A stretch of 64,000 bases of DNA from Mesorhizobium sp. CA14 (GTDB lineage Bacteria; Pseudomonadota; Alphaproteobacteria; Rhizobiales; Rhizobiaceae): NCBI RefSeq assembly GCF_020165195.1, contig NZ_JAIUHR010000014.1, positions 62,001 to 126,000 on the forward strand. The letters are read 5' to 3'. Of this stretch, positions 4,216 through 61,140 are shown one piece after another. The position numbers were made by a program, and so were the translations under genes. Within the stretch, counting starts at the first letter, position 1. Each line of letters starts with the position of its first letter. The notes beneath the pieces were generated by a model that worked only from the letters and a program-made list of their open reading frames with translations, searched no databases and was not told the DNA's origin.

Positions 4216-4217
4216 AA

Positions 4218-4814: not shown

Positions 4815-4829
4815 GGTTTTGGTCGAAGA

Positions 4830-6122: not shown

Positions 6123-6136
6123 ATGGCAAGTACTCC

Positions 6137-7534: not shown

Positions 7535-7661
7535 CGTCAAAGGCCCATTGCTGCCGGTCGCGTCATCCACGGCAATTGTTAATTTTCCGAGCCGGCTCAG
7601 TCGCATTTTTGCCGCGCGGTTGCTATACGTCACCGGCTTTGTGAGAGGGAAGTGCAGTTTC

Positions 7662-8405
7662 ATGGCGTTTTATTCGGTCAACCGTCGATTTGTCGCGGGT
7701 CTGGCGCTTACCGGCTTTATGCTTGCCGCCGCCGGCTGCCAATCGGGCGACAATGGCATTCTTAACTTTGGTTTGACCAAGAAGGATCCGACCGCGCCGC
7801 CGCCGCCGCAGGATCCCAAGATACTCGCCAGCCAGCTGCGCGCCTATTGCCCGAAAGTGACGCTGCGCGACGGCACCGCCTATTTCAACACCTATGCCAA
7901 GGGCGCAACGGCGAAGCCCAAGAAAAAGAAGCTTGACCCCGCGGCGCAAGCCGAGGCCGAGGCAGCAGCCGCGGCCGCCCAGACCGGCCCCAATGGCCAG
8001 CCCATCGATCCCGCTCACGATCCGTCCAAGATCATCTACCAGGCCTCGATCACCGATGTGACGCGTGATTGCACCCATGCCAATGGTCAGATGTCGATGA
8101 AGATAGCCGTCGCCGGCAAGGTCGTGCCGGGGCCAATGTTCGCGCCCGGCACCATCACCATGCCGATCCGCATCGCGGTTCAGCACGGCGACGAGGTGCT
8201 TTATTCGCAGCTGCATCCTTACCAGGTGCAGGTTACCGACCCGTCAGCCGCTACCCAGTTCGTCTTCGTCGACAACAACGTCGTGGTGCCGGAGCCGACC
8301 GCGCGCGACTACCAGGCCTATGCCGGCTATGACGAGAACACGCCGGCCGCGGCGGCGGACAAGTCGAAAGGCAAGCGGAAGAAGCGCGCGCCGGCGACGA
8401 ACTGA
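7662..8405 (+). CDS. Hypothetical lipoprotein with Pro- and Lys-rich segments
   Basis: This 247-residue protein begins with a hydrophobic signal and a lipobox LAAAGC near residue 25, so it should be lipid-anchored to the cell envelope. After a PTAPPPPQDP linker comes a conserved-looking segment (ASQLRAYCPKVTLRDGTAYFNTYAKG), then a KPKKKK plus Ala/Glu-rich linker, a second beta-rich domain (SIITDVTR-like through VFVDNN), and a basic tail KGKRKKR. I do not recognise a function. Start ATG 7662 was chosen because it begins the signal peptide. An extended -10-like TGCTATACG lies at 7621-7629. Confidence 0.8.
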   Translation: MAFYSVNRRFVAGLALTGFMLAAAGCQSGDNGILNFGLTKKDPTAPPPPQDPKILASQLRAYCPKVTLRDGTAYFNTYAKGATAKPKKKKLDPAAQAEAEAAAAAAQTGPNGQPIDPAHDPSKIIYQASITDVTRDCTHANGQMSMKIAVAGKVVPGPMFAPGTITMPIRIAVQHGDEVLYSQLHPYQVQVTDPSAATQFVFVDNNVVVPEPTARDYQAYAGYDENTPAAAADKSKGKRKKRAPATN

Positions 8406-45865: not shown

Positions 45866-46031
45866 CATTGTGTAGTCGGATTTCGCTCGAAATCATCGCA
45901 TGCCGGATGGTAGAAGGGGGAGAAGTAACGTCGGGAAGCAGTCAAGCCGACATTGACAAGCAAGCGTCCGAAACCTAAGCACGGGCAACTTGGCGTCGAG
46001 GCGGGGGCCGCGGTAGTTCAAGGAGAGCTTG

Positions 46032-46922
46032 TTGAAAGGAATTATCCTTGCGGGTGGGAGCGGGACACGCCTTTATCCGCTTACATTAGCGGTTTCTAAG
46101 CAGATACTGCCGATCTACGACAAGCCGATGATCTATTACCCGCTGAGCGTGCTGATGCTCGCTGGGATTCGCCAGATTCTGATCATTTCAACTCCGCGCG
46201 ACTTGCCGGTTTTCCAGGCGTTGCTGGGCGACGGTTCCGAATTCGGGCTGGAACTGTCCTATGCCGAGCAGCCGCAGCCCAACGGCCTCGCCGAGGCCTT
46301 CATCATCGGCCGCGACTTCATCGGCAAGGACAGCGTGTCGATGATTCTCGGCGACAACATCTATTTCGGCGGCGGCCTGTCGCAGCTCTGCCGCGAGGCG
46401 GCGACGCGCGATGGCGGCGCCTCGGTCTTCGCCTATTATGTCGACGATCCGGAGCGTTATGGCGTGGTCTCCTTCGACAAGGCCACCGGCAAGGCGCTGA
46501 CGATCGAGGAGAAGCCGCAAAAGCCGAAGTCAAACTGGGCCGTGACCGGTCTCTACTTCTACGACAACGATGTGGTCGACATCGCCTCGACGATCCGCCC
46601 TTCGGCGCGCGGCGAGCTCGAGATCACGACGGTCAACAATGTCTATCTCGAGCGTGGCGAATTGCATGTCCACCGCCTCGGCCGCGGCTATGCCTGGCTG
46701 GATACAGGCACGCATGACAGCCTGCTCGAGGCATCGTCTTTCGTGCGCACGATCGAGCATCGCCAGGGCATCAAGATCGCGTGCCCGGAAGAGATTGCGC
46801 TGGAGCAGCACTGGATCAGCGCCGACAAGGTTCTGGATCGCGCCGCGCGGCTCGGCAAGAACGAATATGCCGCCTATCTGCGCCGGCGCGTGGCCGATCT
46901 GATGGAGGAACGGGGTGCTTGA
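46032..46922 (+). CDS. rfbA: Glucose-1-phosphate thymidylyltransferase
   Basis: This 296-residue enzyme makes dTDP-glucose. It shows [17 protein letters not shown] at the start, then [27 protein letters not shown] and the VTGLYFYD and [10 protein letters not shown] segments. No ATG fits; TTG 46032 gives the usual beginning and has AAGGAGAG upstream (TTG 46029 is the alternative). A TTGACA at 45953-45958 with a weak -10 17 bp later could be the operon promoter. It is first of four overlapping rfb genes. Confidence 0.95.
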
Positions 46923-47469
46923 GGTCAGGCCGCTCGGCCTCGACGGCGTGCTGGAGATCGTGCCGAAGCGGCATGGCGACGCGCGCGGTTTTTTCAGCGA
47001 GACCTGGAATGCGGAACGCTTCGCCGAAGCCGGCATCGATCTCGCCTTCGTACAGGACAATCATTCCTATTCCGCCGCGGCCGGCGTGCTGCGCGGGCTG
47101 CACTACCAGCTGCCGCCGCGCGCTCAGGACAAGCTGCTGCGCGTCATCAGGGGCAGCGTGCTCGATGTCGCGGTCGACATCCGCCGTTCCTCGCCCACTT
47201 TCGGCAGATGGGAAGCGCTGGAGATATCGGCCGAGAAGGGCAACCAGGTGCTGGTGCCGAAAGGCTTCGCGCATGGCTTCGTCACGCTCGTGCCGGATAC
47301 CGAGGTGCTCTATAAGGTGACCGACACCTACTCGCCCGGGCACGACCGCTCGATCCGCTTCGACGATCCGGCGATCGGCATAAAATGGCCGGAGATCGCG
47401 GGCGGCTTCCAGCTGTCGGACAAGGACCGCAGCGCGCCGCTGCTCGGAGCGGCGGAGGTGTTCGCGTGA
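46915..47469 (+). CDS. rfbC: dTDP-4-dehydrorhamnose 3,5-epimerase
   Basis: This 184-residue cupin-fold epimerase has [33 protein letters not shown] with the catalytic His, [14 protein letters not shown] and [13 protein letters not shown] 46915 overlaps the rfbA stop by 8 bp. It makes dTDP-4-keto-L-rhamnose for RfbD. Confidence 0.95.
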
Positions 47470-47483
47470 GGAGGGACGGCGGC

Positions 47484-48614
47484 ATGAATTTTCTGGTCAC
47501 CGGCGGCGCCGGTTTCATCGGCTCGGCCGTGTGCCGGCATCTGTGCGCCAATCCGGCCTACCGCGTCACCAATCTCGACAAGCTCACCTATGCCGGCAAC
47601 CTCGCTTCGCTGCGGCCGATCGAGAACGCGCATAATTACCGCTTCGAGCAGGCCGACATCTGCGACGAGCGCGCGGTGCTGGAGATCTTGCGCCGCGACG
47701 ACATCGACATCGTCATGAACTTAGCCGCCGAGAGTCATGTCGACCGCTCGATCGACGGGCCGGGCGCGTTCATCGAGACCAACATCGTCGGCACCTACCG
47801 CATCCTGAATGCCGCGCTGGAATATTGGCGCGGCCTGTCCGAGGAGCGCAAAGCGGGCTTCCGCTTCCACCATGTCTCGACCGACGAGGTGTTCGGCGAC
47901 CTGCCTTTCGACGGCGGCATGTTCGTGGAGGAAACGCCCTATGCGCCGTCCTCGCCCTATTCGGCCTCGAAGGCGGCCTCCGACCATCTGGTGCGGGCCT
48001 GGCACGAGACCTACGGCCTGCCGGTGGTGCTTTCCAACTGCTCCAACAATTACGGGCCGTACCATTTTCCGGAAAAGCTGATCCCGCTGGTCATCCTCAA
48101 CGCGCTCGACGAGAAGCCGCTGCCGGTCTACGGCGCCGGCGCCAATGTGCGCGACTGGCTGTTCGTCGAGGATCACGCGCGCGCCCTGGAGCTGGTGGCC
48201 ACCAGGGGGCGGCCGGGCGAGAGCTACAATGTCGGCGGCAATTCCGAGCGCACCAATCTCGGCGTCGTCGAGGCGATCTGCGATCTTCTCGACCTCAGGC
48301 GGCCGCGCGCCGGCGGCAAGCGCCATCGCGAGCTGATCGCCTTCGTCACCGACCGCCCCGGCCATGACCGGCGCTATGCGATCGACGCCTCCAAGATCGC
48401 GCGCGACCTCGGCTGGGCGCCGCGGGAGGATTTCGACAGCGGCCTGGCCCGGACCGTCGACTGGTATCTCGACAACAAATGGTGGTGGGGGCCGATCCGC
48501 GAGCAGCGCTATGCCGGCGAACGGCTGGGCCACGGTTCGGTCGCAAAGAGCCAACACAGTCCGATCGAAAGCAGCCCGGCCGGGAACGCGGCCGAGAGCA
48601 GGGTGACCACGTGA
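47484..48614 (+). CDS. rfbB: dTDP-glucose 4,6-dehydratase
   Basis: This 376-residue extended SDR has [25 protein letters not shown], the catalytic STDEVFGDL and [11 protein letters not shown] (YxxxK). The C-terminus after about 335 ([13 protein letters not shown]...) is a non-conserved tail. The product, dTDP-4-keto-6-deoxyglucose, serves both RfbC/RfbD here and, by inference, the Fdt enzymes at 58-61 kb. It ends inside the rfbD start. Confidence 0.96.
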
Positions 48615-49519
48615 GGCTTGCCGTCACCGGGCGCGAGGGCCAGGTTGCCGCAAGCCTGGTCGAGGCAGCGCGGGGCCGCGACGATGTCGAGGTCATCGCT
48701 GTCGGCCGGCCGGCGCTCGACCTTGCGCGGCCCGACACGGTGTTCGCAGCCCTTGAAGCGGCGAGGCCCGACATCGTCGTTTCCGCCGCCGCCTACACCG
48801 CCGTCGACCAGGCCGAGGACGACAAGGACCTGGCCTTCGCCGTGAACGCAACCGGCGCCGGCAAGGTGGCGCAAGCCGCTGCAAGGCTCGGCGTCCCCGT
48901 CATCCATCTGTCGACCGACTATGTCTTCGACGGCGCCAAGGACGGCGCCTATGTCGAGACCGACCCGACCGCCCCGCTCGGCATCTACGGCGCCTCCAAG
49001 CTCGCCGGCGAAGAGGCGGTCGCCGCGGCCAATCCGCGCCATCTCATCCTGCGCACGGCCTGGGTCTACAGCCCCTTCGGCAGAAACTTCGTCAAGACCA
49101 TGCTGCGGCTGGCCGCCGAACGCGACGAGATATCGGTCGTCGCCGACCAATGGGGCAATCCGACATCGGCGCTCGACATCGCCGACGCGATCCTGCATGC
49201 GGCGGCGAGGCTGGTCGGCGACGGCAATTTCGCCGCCTTCGGCGTCTATCACCTGGCGGGCGAGGGCGACACCAACTGGAGCGGCTTTGCCCGTCACATC
49301 CTCGACACAAGCCGGGCGTTTGGTGGCCCCCACGCGAGCGTGCGCGATATCGCGACGGCGGATTATCCGACCAAGGCCAGGCGTCCGCAAAACTCGCGGC
49401 TTTTGAGTGCCAAGTTTGCGGGGGCGTTTGGGTGGCAGACGCCGGGGTGGCGGGAGTCGGCGGAGAAGGTGGTTCGGCGGCTGGGGGGCGGCGAGACGAA
49501 ACAGGCATTGAGTGCATGA
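48611..49519 (+). CDS. rfbD: dTDP-4-dehydrorhamnose reductase
   Basis: This 302-residue SDR completes dTDP-L-rhamnose. It shows [34 protein letters not shown] and the catalytic [12 protein letters not shown] 48611 overlaps the rfbB stop by 4 bp, and its stop overlaps the ATG of the next gene by 4 bp, tying the large glycosyltransferase to the rhamnose operon. Confidence 0.95.
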
Positions 49520-52500
49520 ACAAGCATCCAGCACCGGAGCAACTGCGCGAAGCGAGCGCGCAGTCGGCCGATCAAGCGGCGCCGAAGAAGGGCGCGAAGG
49601 CTAAGTCATCGAAGACCAGACCGGCGAAGCGCACCTGCATCATGGTGCTCGGCATGCACCGCTCGGGGACGAGCGCGCTGACGAGGGCAATCAGCCTGCT
49701 TGGAGCGGAGCTGCCGAAGAATTTGCTGGGGGCCAATCCGTCGAATCCGACCGGACATTGGGAACCACAGCGTCTCATCGAGTTGAACGACCAGATGCTT
49801 GCCGAGTGTGGCAGCCGTTGGGACGACTGGCGCGCGTTTGACCCCAACGACCTTGGAACCGCGCGCCTGCAATTCTACAAGGCCGAGATCGCCAAAATAA
49901 TCGACGAGGAGTATGACGGCGCCTCGCTCTTTGTTCTCAAGGAGCCGCGCATCTCGCGCTTCGTGCCGCTCTATGCGGAAGTTCTCGAACGGATGCATAT
50001 CGATGTCCGGTACACGCTGGTCTCGCGCAATCCGTTGGCCGTGATCGCTTCGTTGAAAAACCGGGACGGATTTACGGCAGGCTTCAGTTCCCTTCTTTGG
50101 TTGCGACATGAACTGGATGCCGAGCGTGCGACGCGGAAACGGCCACGCATCTTCTTGTCCTATGAAGGTCTGCTCGACGATTGGCGGCAGGGTATTGAAA
50201 GCATTGCGAACACCCTCGGGATCGATTGGCCGCAACCGGAGATGGACTGGCATTCCTTGTTGGGCACGCATTTTTCAGCTGACAGTCAGCACTTTACGGC
50301 CAGTGCCGATTTGCTCGACGCGGACCCGCGCATCACTGGTTGGGTCAAGGTTGCTTACGCGGCACTGACGGCGCTTGAAAAAAACGCTCATGACGAACGC
50401 GCTTTGACGCGGATTGATGCGGTGAGCCTGGCTTTCGATGAAGCGAGTTCAATCTTCGGTGATGCGTGCTTCCCCGAAATGAACGTTCGCATCAAGGCTA
50501 TGTCGGAAGTTCAAGCCGAAACCGCGAGGGTGGCTGAAAGTCGTTCCGTCGAAATGAAAGAGCTGGAAGTCACAGTCGCAAAGATGCGTGCGGAAGCAAC
50601 TGAACGTGATGAGCGTGACGCTAAATTCGCAAGTGATCTAGCGAAGACGAAGCGAAAATTTCAGGCGGAAATGGATAGGCAAGCGGCGGAAGCTGGGGTT
50701 CGAGAAACAACGATCGCCACGTTGCGTGTCCAATTGAACGAAAAAGACTCTGCTGTCGAAGAAGAAAAAAATAGGCTACTTCATGCTTTGCAGACGATAT
50801 CTGCCATAAAGGAGAGTAGATCTTGGAAGATTACACGTCCTTTACGGGCAACAAAAACAGTTGCTCGAAATTTTTCTCTGTTTAGCTTTGCCAAAGCATT
50901 TGCCAGTTCAGCTTTTCGTAGCGTTGGGGTGGGAAAATCTTCTGCAAAAAGGGCGATACATCTCACGGGCCACGCCTTGAAACTTGTTAGAAGCGAAGGA
51001 TTTTATGTAACCTTCGAAAGGGCGAAACGCTTTGCCGCCAGAAGACAGCATGTTCTCCCAGGTCGTCCCCTCAATAGTTATACAAATTTTTCCTCGTTTT
51101 CCCTAGTTCGTGATGACGGTGCGACGAACGCAAGGCGCCTGACGCCGGAGCATGACCTGGCCGTTCGTATACCGCTACCTCGAGTCTCTAGGGTGGCATT
51201 ACCCCGCGACATCGCGGTCATCGTCCATGTTTTCTACACAGAAGTATTTCCTGAAATACTTGCTGCGCTTAAAAATGTCGGAAAAGATTTCAAGCTATAC
51301 GTGTCAACAACTGAGGATGTTAAGGCTGCCGTTGTAAGAAGAATGTGTGAAGAGAACGGGTTCGAGCACATCGAAATCCGCGTTTTCGAGAATAAAGGGC
51401 GAGATATCGCACCGAAGATTGTAGGTTTTCGTGATATATATGACAAGCACGAATTCTTTCTGCATCTTCACACAAAAAAATCTCCCCATCTGTCTGATCT
51501 TGAGGGTTGGAGGTCATATCTGATCGACAATCTGATTGGGTCAAAGGAGATAGTCAGGTCAATATTTTCAATTTTTATGTCGAATCCAGAGATCGGCATA
51601 ATTTATCCGCAGCACTACGCCCCCGTCCGGACTATGTTGAATTGGGGTTTTGATTTCAATATGGCGAAGAGCCTGCTTCGGCGCGCCAATTGGGACCTCA
51701 GCAAAGACAGTGTCCTGGAGTTCCCGTCTGGGTCGATGTTTTGGGGGCGGTCGGCCGCTCTGAAGCCGCTTCTCGACTTAGGGCTATCGTTCGACGACTT
51801 CCCGGACGAGGCTGGTCAGGTCGACGGCACCTTGGCTCATGCCATCGAACGTAGCTATCTGCATTTTGCAGAATGTGCCGGGTTTTATTGGCTCAAGATT
51901 CAAAAGAGTGCCGAGCCTGCATCGTCAACGTTGCTGGCTTTGGAGCAGCCAGGCGACGCCAGGCTGTCGGAGAAGGCTTACGCGCCGCTTTTTGAGGAAC
52001 CAGGGCGATTTGACCTTTCGCTTAGCCGGGACTATGGCGAACTTCGCCCGCTAAAAATGGCCAGGTCGAGTAGTAGGAAGCGAAGGATCAACCTACTTCT
52101 GCCAACGATAGACCCGCTTTGGATATTTGGAGGAATATCGACTGCGATAAAGGTCTTCGACGAAGTCGCTGCTGAATTGCCCGATTTCGACAAGAGAATT
52201 GTCGTGCTGGATTCTCCCGTAGAGCGGAGTCACCTGCATAATTTTCCTGGATACGTTATGAACTCAACCGCGGGTCGTACTGTGGTTTTCGAGGCCTTTG
52301 ATCGAACGCAGGGTTTGGACGTGCGCGAGGACGACGTCTACATCTCAACGGCTTGGTGGTCGGAGTATCTGCGAAGGTCGATCGCCCGTTTTCAAAAGAA
52401 GGCATTCGGCCACAGTTCAGGCGCGGTCTATTTTATACAAGATTATGAGTCGAATTTCGTGCAGTGGTCCTCGCGGTGGGCAATCGCGGAGTCAACCTAC

Positions 52501-53169
52501 GAACTGGGCCGAGGCGTAATCCCGCTCGTGAATTCGGAAGAGCTTTCGTCCTTCATGCGCGATCGATTTGATCTTAAAAATCCGGTAGTTGTTCCGTTTC
52601 GGATTAATAAAACCATCGAGCGAAGGATTGAGGCAGCTCCTAAAGAGAGGATTATTCTGTGCTACGGACGACCTACAGCTGCTAGGAATTGTTTCGAGAT
52701 AATTGTTGACGGTCTGTCGCTGTGGCAGCAACGAAATCCTACGGACGCTGTCAAATGGCAAGTGGTCTTCCTGGGAGAGAATTTCCATGCAGCGAAGGCA
52801 TGGCCCGTTCAGAATTGCACCGTTCCTGGGAAAGTCAGTCTTGAGGAATATGCAAAATATTTAAGCAGGGCGAGTGTCGGGATCTCCCTGATGATTTCCC
52901 CACACCCTAGCTATCCTCCGCTGGAAATGGCCCATGCCGGCCTAGTCACTGTCTCCAATAACTACGATACGAAGAATATATCGGCACGAAGCGAGAATCT
53001 TGTCGGACTTGATCAGGTAACACCAGATGCGGTCGCTGCTGCTCTTGAGAGCTGCATCGAATTGGCCGAGCACAATATTGGTCGCGTGATCGGGCGGGGA
53101 GAAATCAAAGCAATCCCGTTTGTTGGAAGCAGATACGATCCTGCAGAACTGGCAGCGGCGTTGAGATAG
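49516..53169 (+). CDS. 1217-residue sulfotransferase-like / rhamnan-synthesis-F-like / GT4-like fusion
   Basis: Three recognisable parts. Residues about 38-300 look like a PAPS sulfotransferase: phosphosulfate loop GMHRSGTSALTRAI at 46-59, then NPTGHWEP and LVSRNPLAVIASL for the 3'-phosphate site. Residues about 320-440 form a charged coiled coil. Residues about 560-840 resemble RgpF/rhamnan synthesis F glycosyltransferases (RDIAVIVHVFYTEVFPEIL, RVFENKGRDIAPKI, FFLHLHTKKSPH). Residues about 850-1217 resemble WsaF/GT4-type transferases (LLLPTIDPLWIFGGISTA, YFIQDYES, ISPHPSYPPLEMA). Its ATG overlaps the rfbD stop, which fits an L-rhamnose polymer assembly role at the inner membrane. Confidence 0.85.
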   Translation: MNKHPAPEQLREASAQSADQAAPKKGAKAKSSKTRPAKRTCIMVLGMHRSGTSALTRAISLLGAELPKNLLGANPSNPTGHWEPQRLIELNDQMLAECGSRWDDWRAFDPNDLGTARLQFYKAEIAKIIDEEYDGASLFVLKEPRISRFVPLYAEVLERMHIDVRYTLVSRNPLAVIASLKNRDGFTAGFSSLLWLRHELDAERATRKRPRIFLSYEGLLDDWRQGIESIANTLGIDWPQPEMDWHSLLGTHFSADSQHFTASADLLDADPRITGWVKVAYAALTALEKNAHDERALTRIDAVSLAFDEASSIFGDACFPEMNVRIKAMSEVQAETARVAESRSVEMKELEVTVAKMRAEATERDERDAKFASDLAKTKRKFQAEMDRQAAEAGVRETTIATLRVQLNEKDSAVEEEKNRLLHALQTISAIKESRSWKITRPLRATKTVARNFSLFSFAKAFASSAFRSVGVGKSSAKRAIHLTGHALKLVRSEGFYVTFERAKRFAARRQHVLPGRPLNSYTNFSSFSLVRDDGATNARRLTPEHDLAVRIPLPRVSRVALPRDIAVIVHVFYTEVFPEILAALKNVGKDFKLYVSTTEDVKAAVVRRMCEENGFEHIEIRVFENKGRDIAPKIVGFRDIYDKHEFFLHLHTKKSPHLSDLEGWRSYLIDNLIGSKEIVRSIFSIFMSNPEIGIIYPQHYAPVRTMLNWGFDFNMAKSLLRRANWDLSKDSVLEFPSGSMFWGRSAALKPLLDLGLSFDDFPDEAGQVDGTLAHAIERSYLHFAECAGFYWLKIQKSAEPASSTLLALEQPGDARLSEKAYAPLFEEPGRFDLSLSRDYGELRPLKMARSSSRKRRINLLLPTIDPLWIFGGISTAIKVFDEVAAELPDFDKRIVVLDSPVERSHLHNFPGYVMNSTAGRTVVFEAFDRTQGLDVREDDVYISTAWWSEYLRRSIARFQKKAFGHSSGAVYFIQDYESNFVQWSSRWAIAESTYELGRGVIPLVNSEELSSFMRDRFDLKNPVVVPFRINKTIERRIEAAPKERIILCYGRPTAARNCFEIIVDGLSLWQQRNPTDAVKWQVVFLGENFHAAKAWPVQNCTVPGKVSLEEYAKYLSRASVGISLMISPHPSYPPLEMAHAGLVTVSNNYDTKNISARSENLVGLDQVTPDAVAAALESCIELAEHNIGRVIGRGEIKAIPFVGSRYDPAELAAALR

Positions 53170-53225
53170 TCGGCATGAGCGGGTATCGTCTCGTGGTGTT
53201 TAATTGTCGCGGGTGCGGCTAAAAG

Positions 53226-54026
53226 ATGTTTACGGGTGTGCCGTTGCCAGCGCTGATACTTTCACTCATTCGCCGAGAAATTGCCGGTCGCTATCGCGGC
53301 TCGGTATTTGGCCTTCTTTGGTCGTTCCTCAATCCACTATTTATGCTGGCGATTTACACTTTTGTTTTCGGCGTAGTTATGAAGTCCCGGTGGACTGTTC
53401 CCGGCGACGAAGCTGCTGCGCATTCTACCGGTGAATTTGCAGTCATTCTCTTCTGCGGCCTTATTGTGTTCCAATTTTTCGCGGAGGTGATTTCGCACTC
53501 TCCGAGTTTGATCGTGGCCAATGTCAATTACGTTAAAAAGATAGTCTTTCCGATTCAAATTCTGCCCATAGTGTCGGCGGGAGCGGCGTTGTTTCACGCC
53601 ACGGTCAGTCTGTTGGTGCTTTTAGTCTTTGCATTCGGCGTCTTCGGCAGGGTACCATCTACAGTTATTTTGGCGCCCATAGTTTTCGTGCCGCTTGCCG
53701 TACTTGTGCTAGGCATCGCGTGGATGTTAGCTTCGATAGGCGTCTATTTTCGGGATAGCAGTCAGATCGTGGCACCTTTCGTCACGGCGACAATGTTCCT
53801 TTCGCCGGTGTTCTTCCAAAGAACTGCACTGCCAGTCTGGCTGCAACCCTGGCTTTCACTCAACCCACTTTCGATTCCAGTCGAGAGTTTTCGCAATGTG
53901 GTCCTCTTTGGCGTGCAGCCAGACTGGCTGGCGCTTGGCTACTATTCCATGGCAGCGTTTATGACTGCATTTCTTGGATATCAGTTTTTCCAAAAGACCC
54001 GCAGGGGATTTGCCGATGTCCTCTAG
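53226..54026 (+). CDS. O-antigen/polysaccharide ABC exporter permease (Wzm-like)
   Basis: This 266-residue inner-membrane protein has about six helices and the ABC-2 export layout: LIRREIAGRYRGSVFGLLWSFLNPL near the N-terminus and a late FLSPVFFQRTALPVWLQP followed by LNPLSIPVESFR. It forms the channel for a lipid-linked glycan. It overlaps the Wzt-like gene by 11 bp. The 56-bp gap from the previous gene is short enough for one transcript. Confidence 0.9.
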   Translation: MFTGVPLPALILSLIRREIAGRYRGSVFGLLWSFLNPLFMLAIYTFVFGVVMKSRWTVPGDEAAAHSTGEFAVILFCGLIVFQFFAEVISHSPSLIVANVNYVKKIVFPIQILPIVSAGAALFHATVSLLVLLVFAFGVFGRVPSTVILAPIVFVPLAVLVLGIAWMLASIGVYFRDSSQIVAPFVTATMFLSPVFFQRTALPVWLQPWLSLNPLSIPVESFRNVVLFGVQPDWLALGYYSMAAFMTAFLGYQFFQKTRRGFADVL

Positions 54027-55440
54027 CGGATCCGAGGCCGGCAACGGCGGCTCAGATGTCGCCATCCGTGTGCGCGACGTGTCGAAGCACTACGTGATGT
54101 TCGAGCGACCTGAGGACCGCTTCAAGCAGATGACCGTACCGCGGCTGCAACGTCTGGTCGGCCGTCCGCCACGTCGCTATTTTCGCGACTTCGCGGCCTT
54201 GTCCGGCGTTTCTTTCGAGATTGGCCGGGGCGAGACAGTTGGTATCATCGGCCGCAACGGTTCCGGCAAATCGACCCTGCTGCAGATCGTTTGCGGCACG
54301 CTACAGCCAACCAGCGGCTCAGTGGAGGTTAACGGCCGCATCGCCGCTCTTCTTGAACTTGGCGCGGGGTTCAATCCCGAATTCACCGGCCGTGAAAATG
54401 TTTTCCTCAACGCAACGATCCTTGGCGTTCCTCGTAAGGAAATGGAGTGGCGGTTTGATGATATCGCGCGCTTTGCCGACATCGGTCCATTCATCGACCA
54501 GCCGGTAAAAACCTACTCGTCGGGCATGTATGTTCGGCTCGCCTTCGCCACCGCGATCAACGTTGATCCGGACATCCTCGTGGTGGATGAGGCCCTTTCA
54601 GTTGGCGATGAGGCATTCCAACGCAAGTGCTTCGCCCGCATTGAAGACATTAAGGACAAGGGTGGCACCATCCTGTTCGTTAGCCACGGCGCCCAGACCA
54701 TTGTGCAGCTATGCACACGAGCGATGTTGATCGACGGCGGTGAGAAAATCCTGGAGGGTCGACCGAAGAGGGTGGTTAGCCAATACCAGCGATTGGTGAA
54801 CTTAACTGGGGAGGAGGCGCGTAGCGTCCGCAAGCAAATTGTCGAAATGGATGAAGCAGCAATGAGGAGCCCTGATGGGTCTCATCTAAGCCGGGTAGCC
54901 GATCAACAAGTTTCCCAATTGCAGCATGAAGTGGTTCAATCCGGTGACGAAAGTTGGTTCGATCCGTCGTTGATTTCGCATTCGAGAGTTGAATACGAGA
55001 GTCAGGGAGCTGAAATAAGCCAACTGCGGATTATTGATTCGACCGGAAAAGAAGTAAATGTGCTTGTACATGGTCGGAGATATACATACAAATATGATGT
55101 AAATTTTACGGATGATATATATAATTTTGGATTTGGAATGATGATAAATACCAAGTCAGGAATGGGAATATCCGGTATAGGAAAGGGCACGAGTGGGAGA
55201 CCTGCAGTTAAAAAGGTAAGTAAAGGATCGAAGGTCAAGGTATCTATCGATTTCGTGGCGGATTTGTTGCCGGATGTTTATTTTTTCAATGCGGGAATAA
55301 CCGGAACAACGTCTGGAGGAGGCGGTTTTGTTCACCGTATTATCGATGGCTTAGCATTTCGAATTGCGCCAGTTGCGGATTTGGAGGCGACCGGACTCGT
55401 CGATCTTGGCGTTGCAGGCAGTTATGAGTTGATAGATTGA
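54016..55440 (+). CDS. O-antigen ABC exporter ATPase with C-terminal glycan-binding domain (Wzt-like)
   Basis: This 474-residue protein has an ATPase domain (about 10-260): Walker A GRNGSGKSTLLQ, signature YSSGMYVRLAFA, Walker B ILVVDEALSVGDEAF, His in VSHGAQ. A linker precedes a C-terminal beta-sandwich (about 320-474; VEYESQGAEISQLRI, VDFVADLLPDVYFFNAG-type), as in Wzt proteins that recognise the capped end of an O-antigen chain. Its second half is visibly AT-rich compared with the ATPase part, a possible sign of domain exchange. Confidence 0.92.
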   Translation: MSSSGSEAGNGGSDVAIRVRDVSKHYVMFERPEDRFKQMTVPRLQRLVGRPPRRYFRDFAALSGVSFEIGRGETVGIIGRNGSGKSTLLQIVCGTLQPTSGSVEVNGRIAALLELGAGFNPEFTGRENVFLNATILGVPRKEMEWRFDDIARFADIGPFIDQPVKTYSSGMYVRLAFATAINVDPDILVVDEALSVGDEAFQRKCFARIEDIKDKGGTILFVSHGAQTIVQLCTRAMLIDGGEKILEGRPKRVVSQYQRLVNLTGEEARSVRKQIVEMDEAAMRSPDGSHLSRVADQQVSQLQHEVVQSGDESWFDPSLISHSRVEYESQGAEISQLRIIDSTGKEVNVLVHGRRYTYKYDVNFTDDIYNFGFGMMINTKSGMGISGIGKGTSGRPAVKKVSKGSKVKVSIDFVADLLPDVYFFNAGITGTTSGGGGFVHRIIDGLAFRIAPVADLEATGLVDLGVAGSYELID

Positions 55441-55451
55441 TGGGAGTTGCG

Positions 55452-56180
55452 ATGCGCTCATTCAGTTCTGATGTCGATCCCGCAAAGAGCCTTCCCGCCG
55501 GATCGCCCGACCACTACACGGCCTTTGTTGGTCCTCCCGATCAATATGATTTCATGGGCGCCACTCAATTCCGTCTATTGTGCGCGCTTGGCCTTCGCGA
55601 GGATCACACGCTCTTGGACTTCGGGTGCGGTAGCCTCCGGGCCGGGCGTCTTTTCATCCCATATCTACAACAGGGCGGTTATTTTGGTATAGATCCAAAT
55701 AAATGGTTGATAGATGAAGCCATAAAAAGCGAAGTCGGAGAGTGGTTGATTGGAATAAAAAGATGCAGATTTGATTATAATAAAAATTTTGACTCCTCTG
55801 TTTTTGGGATGAAGTTCGATTTTATTATTGCTCAATCCATATTCTCGCACGCCGGAAGGGAGCAGGTCGTGAGAGCTTTTGACGGATTTAGTGAAAATAT
55901 CAAAGATGACGGTATTATAGCTGCAACTTTCGTAGTATCAGGAGACAAAGAATCGGAGCATGTTGGAGACGAATGGGTTTATCCAGCTTGCGTGTCATAC
56001 TCCCAAGATACAATTGCTAATTTTGCCTCGAAATGTTCGCTGAAATATATAAAGATTCCTTGGTATCACCCCCGGCAATCGTGGTTTTTGTTTTCAAGGG
56101 ATTCAAAGAATCTTCCGGATGCTGAAACCGCTGCGAGCTATCTTCAGGGCCGAGTTTTAAAAAACCAGCCGATCGCGTAG
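55452..56180 (+). CDS. SAM-dependent methyltransferase
   Basis: This protein of about 242 residues has the class I motif LLDFGCGSLRAGRLF, then GGYFGIDPN (acidic loop after strand 2) and FDFIIAQSIFSH. The frame opens at 55437, but GGGAG at 55442-55446 sits five bases before ATG 55452, so that start is preferred; ATG 55440 would overlap the Wzt stop. It directly follows the Wzt-like gene and is AT-rich. A chain-capping O-antigen methyltransferase is a plausible role. Confidence 0.8.
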   Translation: MRSFSSDVDPAKSLPAGSPDHYTAFVGPPDQYDFMGATQFRLLCALGLREDHTLLDFGCGSLRAGRLFIPYLQQGGYFGIDPNKWLIDEAIKSEVGEWLIGIKRCRFDYNKNFDSSVFGMKFDFIIAQSIFSHAGREQVVRAFDGFSENIKDDGIIAATFVVSGDKESEHVGDEWVYPACVSYSQDTIANFASKCSLKYIKIPWYHPRQSWFLFSRDSKNLPDAETAASYLQGRVLKNQPIA

Positions 56181-56252
56181 CATGTCGCTTGAAATCTTTT
56201 CCATCCCTGAGGCCTATTCCAAGATGTCAGAATTGTCGCCAGCCCGCGCAAT

Positions 56253-57782
56253 TTAGCGGTTGGCTACCTTTGCGAGTGCCTGTTGATTCGCGTAGCTCGG
56301 GGTCTCGCCAAGCCGGATTAATACAATGTCGCCTTGTGTTTCCAGGCTGCCTGGCGCAGGCCATACAGGCATCGTCGAAAGCCGGACAATTGTTTGATCG
56401 ACTTGCTGCTCCGTCGGGTCATTGAGATTGAAATAGCCAAGCAATTTCATGTAGTAGGCAATGCGCTTGGCATTGCCGCCGTCCCACTCGAAGAACGAAT
56501 ATCCGACGGTTGAACTCGGGGGCCTGGGATAGTTGGTGGCAAACGGCAGTCCCCCAAACACGCTCAGAGCGTATGAACGCTTGGCGTCAAAGGCAGGCAT
56601 CGCCGCCAGCCTGTCGTAGATAGCGGCGGCCAGGAGCGTGTCGTGCTTGTCGACAAGATAGCTGGACGCCTGCCGATAGTTTTGGATCACCTGGATCTGG
56701 AAGATTACCACTCCAAGCAGGATCGACGACACGATGCTGATCCTCGCATTGCTGCTTGTCACCGCAAGGTAGACGAAGAGCCAGACCGCTATCGGCAGAC
56801 CTACGAGACTTCTGACGGGCATGATGCCAGCCGCCAGAACGTGGACGCCGAAAGGAATGAACAGGCAAACCAAAGCGGCCGCGAGCAGCAGCAACCTTGT
56901 GCGTGACAACTCCTTGAAAAGCGTCCAGCCGCCGAGGATTAACAGCAGCGGAACTGCCCACAAAATGACACCATAAGTGCCACGGTCCAGGCCAAGTGCC
57001 CCTCCTATCGCTTCCAGCACCCGGCCGGTCACCATCACCGGATGTTGAAAGAAAAAAACCGGCTGGAAAAGCGACTCGAAATACTCACTTCTTTTGGAAG
57101 TGAACGATTTGAAAATTGCATTGCCGACGGCGTAGAAAATCGCGGAGCCCGCTACCAGGACGCCGACGCGGATCAGGTCTTTCGGCAGTGATCTTTCAAT
57201 GCCGGCCCGTGCCTGCAGAACGCAGACAGCAATGCCCAACACCAGAATTGCCGGTGCGAAACTCTGATAGATTGAGATCGCAAAACCGCCGGCAGCGACC
57301 GCAACGAGGAAGCGCGAACCAACTGCCGGGATATCTCTCTTGTTGATCAGCCAAATCGCAAAGGCACCGGCAGCCATGCCGATTCCTACCGCAGCAATGT
57401 TGGAGTAGAACTCTACGATAAAGAACCAGGTCGGGAAGGCACAGAAGATCGCGAAGCAAGCATATTCGGCGATGGAAAGCTCGTGCTTGGCGATGGCGTC
57501 CATAACGAGCAGATAAGCGGCAACACAGCCGACGCCAAAGATTGCCGGCGCCAGTAATGGCATTACTGGATTTGGGATAAGGAACCTCTCGATCAGGTAG
57601 GCCCCCCAACGCCCCTGGGCAATCCAGATCGAAGAATCGGTTCTGAGGGCGGCTAGCTCTTCGTCAATGGACAGCGAAAAGGAGGCCAGCTCGGAAAAGT
57701 ACATTGCGACAAAGATCGCAAAGAGGTTGATAGCCGCCCGGATCGAGGAGGGGCGTGTCAGCATCGTCTGCGGAGTATCCAT
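56253..57782 (-). CDS. GtrII-type membrane glycosyltransferase (Glucos_trans_II family)
   Basis: This 509-residue integral membrane protein has about ten hydrophobic helices and a soluble C-terminal portion (about 400-509). The N-terminal part has SIDEELAALRTD and WIAQGRWGAYLIERFLIP, the acidic loop and GRWG element typical of the GtrII/Glucos_trans_II family that uses undecaprenyl-phosphate sugars to decorate O-antigen outside the membrane. It overlaps gtrA by 25 bp and ends the minus-strand operon. The sugar specificity is unknown. Confidence 0.85.
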   Translation of the reverse strand: MDTPQTMLTRPSSIRAAINLFAIFVAMYFSELASFSLSIDEELAALRTDSSIWIAQGRWGAYLIERFLIPNPVMPLLAPAIFGVGCVAAYLLVMDAIAKHELSIAEYACFAIFCAFPTWFFIVEFYSNIAAVGIGMAAGAFAIWLINKRDIPAVGSRFLVAVAAGGFAISIYQSFAPAILVLGIAVCVLQARAGIERSLPKDLIRVGVLVAGSAIFYAVGNAIFKSFTSKRSEYFESLFQPVFFFQHPVMVTGRVLEAIGGALGLDRGTYGVILWAVPLLLILGGWTLFKELSRTRLLLLAAALVCLFIPFGVHVLAAGIMPVRSLVGLPIAVWLFVYLAVTSSNARISIVSSILLGVVIFQIQVIQNYRQASSYLVDKHDTLLAAAIYDRLAAMPAFDAKRSYALSVFGGLPFATNYPRPPSSTVGYSFFEWDGGNAKRIAYYMKLLGYFNLNDPTEQQVDQTIVRLSTMPVWPAPGSLETQGDIVLIRLGETPSYANQQALAKVANR

Positions 57783-58138
57783 CGGGAAACCAGGAAATTG
57801 AGCATCGTCGTGACGACAAGCGTTGCAAAGAACGCCGCCGCTCGGCTCTGCAGCGCTCGCTCGAGAAGATGAAGGCTTACCAAGCCCGCCACAAACACCG
57901 CGGCGACCGAGCCGCCGACTGCCAGCCGATCCGTCAAGCCGGTGCGCCCGCCGGGAAAGACGCGGTCCGGATAGAACACCATCACGAATGCCAGGCCCGC
58001 CAGCCAGGCAATGGTGTAGGAAATGCCCGACGACAGGACCGTCAGGCCGGCAAAGTAGACGGCACTCGTCAGCGCGGTGTTCAGTCCTCCCGCCGCAAGA
58101 AAACGGATTGCATCCGAGCCTATCCGGTCAGCGGCCAT
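57758..58138 (-). CDS. GtrA-type small membrane protein (undecaprenyl-phosphate-sugar flippase)
   Basis: This 126-residue protein has four hydrophobic helices. The start IRFLAAGGLNTALTSAVYFAGL and the ending LNFLVSRWILRRR are characteristic of the GtrA family, thought to flip polyprenyl-phosphate monosaccharides. ATG 58138 overlaps the Fdt fusion gene by 11 bp. It sits between that gene and the GtrII-type transferase. Confidence 0.88.
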   Translation of the reverse strand: MAADRIGSDAIRFLAAGGLNTALTSAVYFAGLTVLSSGISYTIAWLAGLAFVMVFYPDRVFPGGRTGLTDRLAVGGSVAAVFVAGLVSLHLLERALQSRAAAFFATLVVTTMLNFLVSRWILRRRC

Positions 58139-59078
58139 CCGGCCCGACCGTCGCGAGGAAATCCGAATAGTCCCTGATATAATCGCTTGCGTCATACGGA
58201 TGCGAGGCCATGACGAGCAAGACCGTATCCGGCTGGAACTTGTACTGGATGCCCCACACGCCGGGCGGCAGATAGAGCCCGACCGAGGGGTCTGCCAGTG
58301 ACACTTCCTTTCTGTCGTGACCGTCATCGACGACCACCGACAAGCGGCCATGGGTGGCAATCAGGAACTGGTGGCACTGGCGGTGGGCATGCTCGCCCCT
58401 GACCTTGTCGGAACGAACGCCGTAAACCAGAAACGAGCGCAAGGGCTTGAAAGGCAGGTTGTGTCCGAACTCGAGCGGGGCCAGCTCGCCGCGCAGGTCG
58501 CTGAAGTGCGGCAGCCGCCAGAGCTCACATCCGCCGACGCCCAGCGCCATCCTTTCGCCTGCAGCGCCGGGGGCCGCGTGCGTCATCACAGGCTCGACCT
58601 GCGGGCCGGTCTGATAGCCAATGATGACGGCGGGGTTTCCGACCACGACGGCATTGGCCGGCACGTTCTTGGTCACCACGGCACCGGCGCCGATCATCGC
58701 CTGGCGGCCAATCGTTATGCCCGGCAGGATCGTTGCGTTGGCGCCGATCGACGCGCCGTCCTCGACGATCGTCTGGAGAAACTGCTCCGGATAGTGTTTC
58801 GAACGCGGGAAGCGGTCGTTGGTGAAGGTCGCATTCGGACCGACGAACACGCGATTGCCCAGCCGAACGCCGTCCCATAGCTGAACGCCGCTTTTTATCG
58901 TGACGTCATCGCCGACGGTCACGTCGTTTTCGATGAAGACATGATCGCAGATGTTGCAGTTCGCGCCGAGCACGGCCCCTGGGAGGACATGGGCAAACGC
59001 CCATATGCGCGTTCCATTGCCGACGCGCGTGCTTTCGCAGATACCGCGATCATGGACAAAAAATGGTTTGTCGTTCAT
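58128..59078 (-). CDS. Fused hexapeptide N-acetyltransferase / dTDP-sugar 3,4-ketoisomerase (FdtC+FdtA, FdtD-like)
   Basis: This 316-residue bifunctional protein has an N-terminal left-handed beta-helix acetyltransferase (about 1-165; repeated hexapeptides such as IGANATILPGITIG, and the loop NATFTNDRFPRS) and a C-terminal WxcM/FdtA-like cupin (about 185-310; GEHAHRQCHQFLIATHG with the catalytic His pair near 230). FdtA converts dTDP-4-keto-6-deoxyglucose to the 3-keto sugar; FdtC acetylates the 3-amino product. It overlaps the GtrB-like gene by 4 bp. A similar fusion, FdtD, is described in Shewanella. Confidence 0.87.
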   Translation of the reverse strand: MNDKPFFVHDRGICESTRVGNGTRIWAFAHVLPGAVLGANCNICDHVFIENDVTVGDDVTIKSGVQLWDGVRLGNRVFVGPNATFTNDRFPRSKHYPEQFLQTIVEDGASIGANATILPGITIGRQAMIGAGAVVTKNVPANAVVVGNPAVIIGYQTGPQVEPVMTHAAPGAAGERMALGVGGCELWRLPHFSDLRGELAPLEFGHNLPFKPLRSFLVYGVRSDKVRGEHAHRQCHQFLIATHGRLSVVVDDGHDRKEVSLADPSVGLYLPPGVWGIQYKFQPDTVLLVMASHPYDASDYIRDYSDFLATVGPDGR

Positions 59079-60013
59079 GCGGACGTCCCGTCAACAATGC
59101 GGCTTATTATCCGCAATGGGCGCGATTTGGTGTTTTCAACCGCCCGCCAAAGATAACAGCCAAGAATGCCTTGCACCGCGAGGATCGCTGATCCAAATCC
59201 CACAATCAGCAACACCAGCGTCGTGTATCCGGCCGCGTCGATTTTGCCGAGCAAGCGGGCGACGACGGTGATCGCGGCAAACACAAGGCTGAGCACGCAG
59301 CCCGCAATCCCTACCCAGAGTGTGAAAACGATCGGAAAATCGGAAAACGAGAAGATCGAATCCATCATATATCTGAGCCGGCGCCCGATACCCCAGGCAC
59401 TCTTCCCATGCTCCCGCTCGCGCCGCCGGTAAGGCACGAACTCCCGCCTGAACCCAACCCAGAACAGCTGAACCACAAGCGAGCTGTTTGGCTCCTCGAT
59501 TGACAGGATCGCTTCGAGCGCCTGGCGGTTGCAGGCGAATATATCGACGCCGCCGCTAGGCATGCTGGGCAAAATCAGCCTGCGGTAAACGCTCCAGAAG
59601 GCTCGGGACAGGAAGCGCGTCAAAAGGGGGTCGTCGCGGCCGGTTCTGCGGCCAAACACGACGTCGGCCGTATCCTTTTCCAGTATCGAAAAGAATTCGA
59701 CAATGAGTTCGGGCGGCTCTTGCAGGTCGGCAGCCATCGCGGCCACATGTTTGCCGGATGAATGCTCAAGCCCTGTCCGAATGGCCGTGAAGGAACCAAA
59801 ATTCCGGCTGTGGAAGATGATCTTGTACCTGTATCTGGCGTCCTTCAAAGCCCCAACCAGCAGGCCGCCCGACTGGTCGGGCGAACCATCGATGACGAAG
59901 ACAAACTCGATGTCGCCCTCATACATGGCGTCGAATTTGGCGACAGCCTGCAACAGGGAAGGGATGTTCGGCTCATTGCGGTAAATGGGAAAAACAAGAG
60001 AGCGCGCAGTCAC
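59075..60013 (-). CDS. GtrB/DPM1-like GT2 glycosyltransferase (polyprenyl-phosphate sugar transferase)
   Basis: This 312-residue protein has a cytoplasmic GT2 domain (about 1-220; VFPIYRNEPNIPSLL, FVIDGSPDQSGG, MAADLQEPPE, VVFGRRTGRDDP) and two C-terminal transmembrane helices (about 230-255 and 265-290), the arrangement of GtrB/ArnC/DPM1 enzymes that put one sugar onto undecaprenyl phosphate. GTG 60013 overlaps the FdtB stop and has GGGAGG five bases upstream; ATG 60025 is the alternative start. Confidence 0.87.
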   Translation of the reverse strand: MTARSLVFPIYRNEPNIPSLLQAVAKFDAMYEGDIEFVFVIDGSPDQSGGLLVGALKDARYRYKIIFHSRNFGSFTAIRTGLEHSSGKHVAAMAADLQEPPELIVEFFSILEKDTADVVFGRRTGRDDPLLTRFLSRAFWSVYRRLILPSMPSGGVDIFACNRQALEAILSIEEPNSSLVVQLFWVGFRREFVPYRRREREHGKSAWGIGRRLRYMMDSIFSFSDFPIVFTLWVGIAGCVLSLVFAAITVVARLLGKIDAAGYTTLVLLIVGFGSAILAVQGILGCYLWRAVENTKSRPLRIISRIVDGTSA

Positions 60014-61140
60014 ATTGCCTCCCATTCGCTGAGGGCCCCGCACACTTGCTCGATCTCGTCATTCGTCATGTCCGGGTAGCACGGGACGGAACAGAGACGA
60101 CTGATGCTTGCCCGGGAGATCGCGAGATTTTCGGTCCCTTTCATGGGCAGGGCAGCCCAACCAACCTGATCGCAATCGAGCACGGGATAGTGGACATCCG
60201 TATCGATGCCGCGCTCTTTCATGAAGGTGCGGAATGCGTCCCGGTCGTCACACAGCAGAACCGCGAGGTGTGCGACGGCGCCGTTGCCGCCGTCGAGGAA
60301 TTTGAGCCGGCGTCCGCTAACAGCCTTAAATCGGCCAAGGATGGCCCGGCGTTGTTCGTTGCGGCTGTTCAAGTCCGGAAGAAGCACATCCAAAATCGCG
60401 GCCTGGACCTCGTCCATGCGAGAGTTGCGCCCTCCCGGCAGGGCCACATGGTATTTGGAACTCCAGCCATATTGATGAAGCTGACGAACGCGGTCCGCCA
60501 GTTTTGGGTTGGAGGTGAGGACTGCGCCACCGTCACCCATCGCGCCGAGATTTTTGGTCGGATAGAAGCTGAAAGTGGCGATGTCTCCAAGTGATCCAGC
60601 CGTTTCACCCCTGATGCGAGCACCGTGTGCCTGGGCGCAATCCTCGACGAGCGGTATGTGCGACAAGCCGGCATTGACAAGTCCTGCCCGGATAGCGGGA
60701 ACATCGACCACGCCGCCGTACAGATGGGTAACGACAATCGCAGCCGTGTCGGTACTCACCGCGTCCAGCACCGATTGGACGCTTACAAGTTGGCTAGCTG
60801 GTTCGATGTCGACGTAGTGTGGAATGAGGCCGTTGTGCCAGCACGCACAACTGGCATATCCCCCGGCATTCGCCGCCACGATCACCTCGCGTCCATGCGC
60901 ATCGTCAAGCCCGACGATAGAGCGTAAGGCGAGCTCAAGGGCGTCCGTTCCGTTTGCGACGAGGATGCAATCCGAGGCTCCTACAAACGTCGCAAAGTTC
61001 GCTGCGAATCGCTTCCCTGCCGCGCCATTGAGCCACCATCCAGACCGCAGCGTGCTCGCTACCTCGCGTGCGATTTCAACCTCATAGCGCTGGTACAGAC
61101 GCTTGAGATCATTCATCGGAACGGCATTCGGCTTCGTCAT
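60010..61140 (-). CDS. DegT/DnrJ/EryC1 sugar aminotransferase (FdtB-like)
   Basis: This 376-residue PLP enzyme transfers an amino group to a keto-sugar nucleotide. It has MNDLKRLYQRYEVEI, GTDALELAL, EDCAQAHGARIRG, and the PLP lysine in SFYPTKNLGAMGDGGAV near residue 195. Next to the FdtA/FdtC fusion it is best read as dTDP-3-keto-6-deoxyhexose 3-aminotransferase (FdtB or QdtB). ATG 61140 is chosen over two upstream TTG codons. It is first in the minus-strand operon. Confidence 0.88.
   Translation of the reverse strand: MTKPNAVPMNDLKRLYQRYEVEIAREVASTLRSGWWLNGAAGKRFAANFATFVGASDCILVANGTDALELALRSIVGLDDAHGREVIVAANAGGYASCACWHNGLIPHYVDIEPASQLVSVQSVLDAVSTDTAAIVVTHLYGGVVDVPAIRAGLVNAGLSHIPLVEDCAQAHGARIRGETAGSLGDIATFSFYPTKNLGAMGDGGAVLTSNPKLADRVRQLHQYGWSSKYHVALPGGRNSRMDEVQAAILDVLLPDLNSRNEQRRAILGRFKAVSGRRLKFLDGGNGAVAHLAVLLCDDRDAFRTFMKERGIDTDVHYPVLDCDQVGWAALPMKGTENLAISRASISRLCSVPCYPDMTNDEIEQVCGALSEWEAM

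Follow-up and report, generated by a model that had tools for sequence, protein, structure and literature searches.

The 64,000-nucleotide stretch analyzed here (the window) comes from Mesorhizobium sp. CA14 (assembly GCF_020165195.1, contig NZ_JAIUHR010000014.1, positions 62,001 to 126,000 of the forward strand). At positions 56253 to 61140, the open reading frame (ORF) translations and strand reading place a cassette of five minus-strand genes in which enzymes for a nucleotide-linked amino sugar are interleaved with components of a membrane glycosylation system.

Five overlapping genes and their distribution

In transcription order, the cassette encodes an FdtB-like aminotransferase, a GtrB-like family 2 glycosyltransferase (GT2), a fused FdtC/FdtA (FdtC/A) protein, a GtrA-like small membrane protein, and a GtrII-type protein predicted to be a GT-C glycosyltransferase (Table 1). 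The genes begin with ATG at 61140, 60025 (alternatively, GTG at 60043), 59078, 58138, and 57782, and they overlap at all four junctions, by 16, 4, 11, and 25 bases, respectively. Since every start codon after the first lies within the 3' end of the preceding gene, the arrangement fits one translationally coupled transcript. Consensus-match scans, which neither show nor exclude a single transcript, returned one promoter-like site within the cassette, on the opposite strand (1.9 in shuffled sequences), and 11 terminator-like sites (6.7 in shuffles; standard deviation, 2.4), nine of which are on the minus strand and inside genes. Pfam assigned four of the five proteins above cutoff, with the GtrA-like protein as the exception. 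A first-pass annotation made from the sequence had described five overlapping genes forming a coupled set and had named them FdtB, GtrB, fused FdtC/FdtA, GtrA, and GtrII. The positions and the four overlapping junctions were found as described, and the gene calls were upheld by Pfam and PDB searches.

Table 1. Genes of the cassette and of the adjoining polysaccharide locus, in window coordinates
Predicted product	Coordinates	Strand	Evidence or position
FdtB/WxcK-like PLP aminotransferase (DegT/DnrJ/EryC1 family)	60010..61140	-	PF01041, 265 bits
GtrB/WxcL-like GT2, predicted undecaprenyl-phosphate 3-acetamido-3,6-dideoxyhexosyltransferase	59075..60025	-	Glycos_transf_2 PF00535, 67.5 bits
Fused FdtC-like N-acetyltransferase and FdtA-like 3,4-ketoisomerase, FdtD/WxcM type	58128..59078	-	Hexapep and FdtA (155.5 bits)
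Small membrane protein of GtrA/WxcN type, predicted to flip a lipid-linked sugar	57758..58138	-	PF04138, 25.8 bits; counterparts at same position
GtrII-type GT-C glycosyltransferase, predicted periplasmic transferase	56253..57782	-	Glucos_trans_II PF14264, 100 bits
RmlA-like nucleotidyltransferase (dTDP-glucose supply)	46029..46922	+	PF00483, 245 bits
RmlC, dTDP-4-dehydrorhamnose 3,5-epimerase	46915..47469	+	PF00908, 230 bits
RmlB, dTDP-glucose 4,6-dehydratase, precursor maker	47490..48614	+	TIGR01181, 484 bits
RmlD-like reductase (dTDP-L-rhamnose); actual start probably within ORF	48479..49519	+	PF04321, 333 bits
Rhamnan synthase of RgpF/WsaF type, N-terminal part sulfotransferase-like, predicted acceptor-chain maker; actual start probably within ORF	49150..53169	+	PF05045, PF21374, PF22772, PF13469
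Wzm-like ABC transporter permease	53226..54026	+	PF01061, 92 bits
Wzt-like ABC transporter ATPase with Wzt_C domain	53974..55440	+	PF00005, PF14524
Polysaccharide-biosynthesis epimerase/dehydratase	61706-63736		Other side of cassette

Among 61 genomes searched, the fused FdtC/A gene was present in five (the window's own and four congeners), while 56 gave no match at an E value of 1e-40. All five genes occur in the same order in four of the five genomes that hold the fused gene; thus, the cassette is not a chance arrangement. In Mesorhizobium sp. B2-7-2 (L014, 9849-10163), the GtrII gene has been lost: some 17 to 20 residues are left, followed by a stretch resembling the region upstream of a capD-like gene. 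More broadly, 7 of 240 genomes in a class-level sample matched the fused gene, the six besides the window's own through the acetyltransferase half only, as did 15 of 398 genomes in a phylum-level sample at an E value of 1e-60 (three through the acetyltransferase half only). Six of 72,556 plasmid records matched at 1e-40, with three matches covering at least 80% of the query. These three came from Phyllobacterium (matches to FdtB, GtrB, FdtC/A, and GtrA plus a 708-residue ORF), Azospirillum argentinense, and Sphingomonas. The Azospirillum plasmid carries the donor genes and an annotated EamA transporter, and a GtrA match was not found there, as if a flippase of the arn type had replaced GtrA.

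Named genome contigs were also scanned, and the best 80 FdtC/A loci were classified by profile searches. As the nearest matches to the fused gene of the window, these loci do not give the proportions that hold for FdtC/A genes in general. FdtB, GtrB, and GtrA were found beside FdtC/A in 40 loci (hereafter, full modules), and FdtB and GtrB were found in 13 more. The remainder had FdtB without GtrB or GtrA (n = 15) or other or no combinations (n = 12). The 53 loci with FdtB and GtrB span nine phyla, and the 40 that also have GtrA span three. Within the full modules, the order FdtB-GtrB-FdtC/A-GtrA was kept in 34 of 40. A rearranged cassette was seen in Mesorhizobium kowhaii (L108, 6980-12078), in which GtrB and FdtB are on the strand opposite to FdtC/A, GtrA, and a membrane protein, the two sets facing each other. 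The overlaps and the conserved gene set together support the earlier proposal that an amino-sugar pathway is coupled to a GtrB/GtrA/GT-C system.

Donor enzymes and the GtrB signature

The donor-sugar enzymes resemble those of known 3-amino-sugar pathways. For the FdtB homologue, QdtB (3frk) and 5u1z ranked third and fourth among 56 PDB matches, and ArnB was among its DegT-type relatives. The column of the pyridoxal phosphate (PLP)-binding lysine holds K in 85/85 aligned homologues. FdtBs beside GtrB mostly carry the motif N-A-x-x-Y (46/53; N-T-Y in 3, other in 4), whereas those without GtrB carry N-T-Y in 8/15 cases (N-A-x-x-Y in 6, other in 1), a sequence difference that is suggestive only. 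The best PDB match of the fused FdtC/A protein was the WxcM-like protein 4mzu (E value, 2.5e-104; residues 8-307), which we take to be the FdtD of Shewanella denitrificans, a maker of dTDP-linked 3-acetamido-3,6-dideoxygalactose (Fuc3NAc). Both domains lie in one chain, the same architecture as in the WxcM-like/FdtD entries 4mzu and 4zu4, and the FdtA histidine pair is conserved, the pair being the residues altered in FdtA entries 2pae and 2pak. This protein is the sole full-length match in its genome, as 9 of 10 matches are parts of the acetyltransferase half. The families and PDB relatives of the FdtB and FdtC/A proteins thus support the 3-acetamido-3,6-dideoxyhexose pathway predicted by the first-pass annotation.

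The GtrB homologue has as its best PDB match the GtrB of Synechocystis, sll0501 (E value, 3.6e-41), followed by ArnC. We compared it with other Fdt-associated GtrBs (n = 69, drawn from the 80 loci plus 16 additional stretches, with near-duplicates retained). The first Asp of the DXD motif is replaced in all 69 (Ala in 64, Ser in 5). The cassette protein has Ala at this position and keeps the metal ligands and the putative catalytic Asp. Unchanged in 69/69 are the second DXD Asp, the Gln that follows it, the putative catalytic Asp, and the Arg at the position of GtrB R122, and the next sugar-contact position holds Glu in 64 and Asp in 5. The Pfam assignment, the sll0501 match, and these conserved residues mark the protein as a GtrB-type polyprenyl-phosphate GT2. 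The first Asp is present in Synechocystis GtrB, in the two ArnC sequences aligned, and in 4/4 phage GtrBs examined, P22 among them. The first Asp is a sugar-contact residue in a solved relative, and dolichyl phosphate mannose synthase (DPMS) without it retains some residual activity; in the paper on Synechocystis GtrB, the DXD motif as a whole, with its first Asp, is credited with the metal contact (PMC4728340).

A background set of GtrBs (n = 60) was drawn from the phylum-level sample by taking the top-ranked listed places that followed the Fdt-type ones, with one listed place skipped. The first Asp is kept in 51 of these and absent in 9. A DegT aminotransferase lies near 4 of the 9 GtrBs without the Asp versus 0 of the 51 with it (Fisher P = 0.00026, a value that ignores relatedness, with several of the 9 on short contigs, and that we do not use as proof). 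In a quick maximum-likelihood tree of 129 rows, calculated without bootstrap, 66 of the 69 Fdt-type GtrBs form one clade that covers eight phyla, Gram-positive ones included (branch length, 1.05; Shimodaira-Hasegawa-like approximate likelihood ratio test [SH-aLRT], 100). Three Chloroflexota sequences fall apart from the other 66, beside the background row L170, and all 51 Asp-bearing rows form one clade. The L170 sequence (2106-8307) is a divergent GtrB with Ala-Ala-Asp, and its neighbors are a separate ketoisomerase, a DegT aminotransferase, and RmlA- and RmlB-looking ORFs; it is perhaps a second lineage of 3-amino-sugar GtrB.

Membrane partners and comparison with known systems

The Xanthomonas nasturtii counterpart of the GtrA-like protein, encoded at the same position, scored 74.3 bits against PF04138. 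The GtrII-type protein was modeled by AlphaFold with 15 homologues (pLDDT, 87.7). Its best Foldseek match was ArnT with bound undecaprenyl phosphate (UndP) (E value, 2.8e-3; probability, 1.00), and the matches of probability >0.6 are GT-C enzymes. By VIA-align, 47 of the 50 rows shown correspond to GT-C enzymes or oligosaccharyltransferase (OST) complexes, and 3 correspond to glycosylphosphatidylinositol (GPI) transamidase subunit U; the best alignment had a Z of 13.9 and a root mean square deviation of 4.3 over 292 residues. Asp40 and Arg58 are invariant across 16 aligned GtrII-type sequences. Together, the PF14264 assignment and the fold of the predicted model point to a GT-C-fold transferase.

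Large membrane proteins also accompany the module elsewhere. At least one same-strand ORF of at least 340 residues with at least six membrane segments (by a simple hydropathy count) lies within 2.5 kb in 29 of the 40 full modules, and a profile labels the partner GtrII in 10 of these 29. Grouping the partner candidates together with the window's GtrII protein gave 15 sets that share no pairwise similarity at an E value of 1e-5. As far as sequence comparison can tell, a constant donor module is accompanied by changing large membrane partners.

The closest known system is the wxcK-O region of Xanthomonas. A transposon sequencing paper on Xanthomonas hortorum describes wxcK as a transaminase, wxcL as a glycosyltransferase, wxcM as a bifunctional acetyltransferase/isomerase, wxcN as a sugar transferase, and wxcO as a sugar translocase, places rmlD, C, A, and B a few genes before them, and proposes Fuc3NAc branches as a phage receptor (PMC12573098). 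In Xanthomonas campestris, Tn5 mutants of wxcK and of wxcN, which encodes a small membrane protein, have lipopolysaccharide (LPS) without acetamidofucose (FucNAc) branches in which the rhamnan persists, although one passage gives traces for wxcN; the branches are added after main-chain synthesis, per a report cited there (Steffens 2016; PMC4878081). A review gives the Xanthomonas side chain a distinct mechanism (PMC8042644). The first four proteins of this wxc region 3 correspond to those of the cassette in the same order, and as the X. campestris branch sits on a rhamnan main chain, so the cassette adjoins a rhamnan locus. Identities between X. nasturtii (L095) and the window are 41% for FdtB, 47% for GtrB, 60% for FdtC/A, and 33% over 75 residues for GtrA, and rmlA- and rmlB-like genes lie upstream of the four common genes in X. 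nasturtii as well. The fifth Xanthomonas protein is a large membrane protein of 750 residues (strain B100) or 753 residues (X. nasturtii), whereas that of the cassette is of the GtrII type; the X. nasturtii protein has no Pfam family, and a PDB profile search with it returned nothing at an E value of 1. According to a 2007 comparison, other Xanthomonas strains hold a different gene, of 730 residues, in the place of wxcO, and a GtrA-family protein occurs in a different Xanthomonas LPS locus (PMC2238763). Such replacement of wxcO would fit an exchange of the transferase. The names GtrA and GtrB were not found for the wxc locus in the two papers that were word-searched, a search outside which most subscription papers fell. 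The cassette appears to be a new relative of the wxcK-O kind, a locus that in turn is most readily understood as a three-component system of the gtr type that brings along an amino-sugar pathway.

Three other systems share parts of this design. Phage gtr cassettes such as that of P22 likewise unite in a single operon a GT2 of the GtrB type, a small membrane protein of the GtrA type, and a large type-specific transferase, but the P22 cassette consists of three genes and lacks a donor pathway, whereas the cassette studied here has five genes that include the donor enzymes. When 50,697 phage records were searched for the fused FdtC/A gene, one partial match to the FdtA half was the sole return (39% identity; E value, 1e-20). 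Given this search, the five genes, and a replaced first Asp where the four phage GtrBs keep theirs, the reading as a phage-borne seroconversion cassette was rejected. The arn pathway likewise makes an amino-sugar donor through a DegT aminotransferase (ArnB), loads UndP with a GtrB-like enzyme (ArnC), and ends in a GT-C enzyme (ArnT); ArnC keeps the first DXD Asp, which the cassette GtrB lacks. The arn genes also form an operon arrangement, and they employ a UDP- rather than a dTDP-sugar, an amino group at C4, no ketoisomerase, a lipid A acceptor, and an EamA-type flippase. Finally, three-component systems for pentofuranose in Citrobacter youngae O1/O2 and for galactose in Klebsiella have been published, some with extra donor-making genes, and these systems branch an ABC-transporter-exported O-antigen in the periplasm (PMC11127046), as we propose for the cassette. 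The Citrobacter donor is made from phosphoribosyl pyrophosphate (PRPP) by an enzyme unlike GtrB (PMC11127046) and contains no amino sugar, in contrast to the GtrB-type enzyme and predicted amino sugar of the cassette.

These comparisons divide the interpretation offered by the first-pass annotation. Its gene calls, coupling, and pathway stand, and so, probably, does its mechanism. Its statement that gtr cassettes are three genes that usually add glucose proved too narrow in view of the Klebsiella and Citrobacter systems, and its claim that no such case had been described does not survive the wxcK-L-M-N-O locus, which has matching parts and whose wxcK and wxcN mutants lose FucNAc branches (PMC12573098 and PMC4878081).

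A predicted route to O-antigen branching

The genes beside the cassette bear on its acceptor and on its precursor supply. The rml genes, the RgpF/WsaF-type synthase gene, and the Wzm/Wzt genes (Table 1) form a layout that, by gene family, is as expected for an ABC-transporter-exported rhamnan O-antigen, and a plus-strand methyltransferase gene after wzt ends 72 bases from the cassette. As the rmlB of this locus is the sole one of 20 genome matches above the TIGR01181 cutoff, the same locus presumably supplies the dTDP-4-keto-6-deoxyglucose needed by the FdtA enzyme. The ORF at 49150-53169 is a single reading frame of 1339 codons with a weak PF13469 part and is probably a multidomain rhamnan synthase. 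The G+C content is 0.49 to 0.54 over the rhamnan/Wzm/Wzt genes (50000-57000), compared with 0.62 to 0.71 in the first 49 kb and 0.55 to 0.60 in the cassette; these differences suggest separate acquisition.

Taken together, we consider it likely that the five genes make up a three-component glycosylation operon of the WxcKLMNO type, one that has its own donor pathway and decorates the rhamnan O-antigen. RmlA and RmlB, encoded ∼8 to 12 kb away, would make dTDP-4-keto-6-deoxyglucose. The FdtA half would shift the keto group to C3, where the FdtB homologue would introduce an amino group, and the FdtC half would N-acetylate the product, most likely giving dTDP-Fuc3NAc, with 3-acetamido-3,6-dideoxyglucose (Qui3NAc) as the alternative. 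We infer that the GtrB homologue loads this sugar onto UndP and that the GtrA homologue flips the lipid-linked sugar across the membrane. The GtrII-type GT-C enzyme would then attach it outside the cytoplasm, as side branches on the rhamnan O-antigen exported by the adjacent Wzm/Wzt.

Other explanations differ from this route in the role of GtrB, in the sugar, or in the acceptor. The GtrB homologue could be an ordinary UndP-glucose synthase, in keeping with the activity of its best solved relative, Synechocystis GtrB, in which case the Fdt genes would serve a cytoplasmic transferase and the adjacency would be coincidental. We regard this as very improbable, since FdtB and GtrB lie beside FdtC/A in 53/80 loci from nine phyla with the order kept in 34/40 loci with GtrA, and since 66/69 Fdt-type GtrBs group in a separate deep clade and the Asp that the four phage GtrBs retain is missing from all 69. 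With the same machinery, the sugar supplied could be Qui3NAc (gluco) in place of Fuc3NAc (galacto), or it could be a 3-N-acyl variant. The PDB relatives of the cassette enzymes include QdtA and QdtB as well, and the stereochemical outcome of the ketoisomerase may hinge on few residues. However, the ketoisomerase half is nearer to the WxcM-like 4zu4 (142 bits), then to FdtA (96 bits), than to the QdtA entries (80 to 87 bits), and it shares the arginine of a D-x-R-G motif with 4zu4 and FdtA. QdtA presumably has Tyr at this position. Fuc3NAc is thus the most likely sugar on sequence grounds, and a different donor is unlikely. The acceptor, in turn, could be another polysaccharide, lipid A/core, or a protein glycan, with the donor as proposed. 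Actinomycetota and a cyanobacterium carry the module too, and several unrelated membrane proteins are found next to it, which means that acceptors must differ among hosts. For the window, an acceptor other than the O-antigen is rather unlikely, given that the cassette adjoins a complete rhamnan/Wzm/Wzt locus and that the Xanthomonas branch sits on rhamnan.

Beyond the window, we tentatively advance a wider reading, to which we give close to an even chance: the Fdt-associated GtrBs would be a dedicated, ancient 3-acetamido-3,6-dideoxyhexose transferase subfamily in which the loss of the first Asp, together with the Asp-to-Glu change (64/69), is a specificity change fitting the C3 acetamido group, and FdtB, GtrB, FdtC/A, and usually GtrA would form a portable UndP-Fuc3NAc module that takes unrelated GT-C enzymes for different polymers.

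Several observations weigh against O-antigen branching by the cassette or against this wider reading. Because the Asp-bearing GtrBs form one clade, loss of the Asp amounts to one or two events and not to repeated independent evidence, which weakens an argument from independent origins of the DXD change; as judged from alignment and tree, the signature is uniform and deep and rests on few evolutionary events. Given the residual activity of DPMS and the metal contact in GtrB, a role of the first Asp in specificity is not established, and a DegT aminotransferase was not found near five of the nine background GtrBs that lack it. The GtrA-like protein falls just below the PF04138 cutoff (25.8 versus 26.1 bits). 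Foldseek gave no match to the GtrII model at an E value of ≤0.001, and, as the tool itself warns, Z values such as 13.9 are not unusual among helical models. When 19 of the partners were scanned with Pfam, 14 had no family, 2 were GtrII, 2 were PMT_2-like (one over the cutoff), and 1 was an acyltransferase; with 14/19 lacking a family, a GT-C nature is shown for few. An hhalign comparison of the X. nasturtii WxcO-like protein with GtrII gave a probability of 35%, and the model of the former, from two sequences, had a pLDDT of 37; the fifth genes, wxcO and GtrII, would be analogous at most. The authors of the Xanthomonas Tn5 mutants could not exclude polar effects (PMC4878081). Wzt lies within the flanks in just 9 of the 40 full modules, and 6 of the 40 are from Actinomycetota (L081, L097, L107, L120, L121, and L133), which lack LPS, so that the acceptor there cannot be O-antigen and must be another polymer.

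What is new here is how widely the module occurs, that it has its own GtrB subfamily marked by a donor-site signature, and how varied its membrane partners are. An old, loosely interpreted Xanthomonas locus would thereby be linked to the gtr mechanism, in a combination that is widespread. Where annotation has been generic (a GT2 beside WxcM), the donor sugar and the export route can now be predicted specifically, with a sequence signature in GtrB. Because the branch sugar of X. hortorum is a proposed phage receptor (PMC12573098), an altered branch or transferase may change phage sensitivity and antigenicity. In rhizobia, a change of branch could touch both symbiosis and phage ecology.

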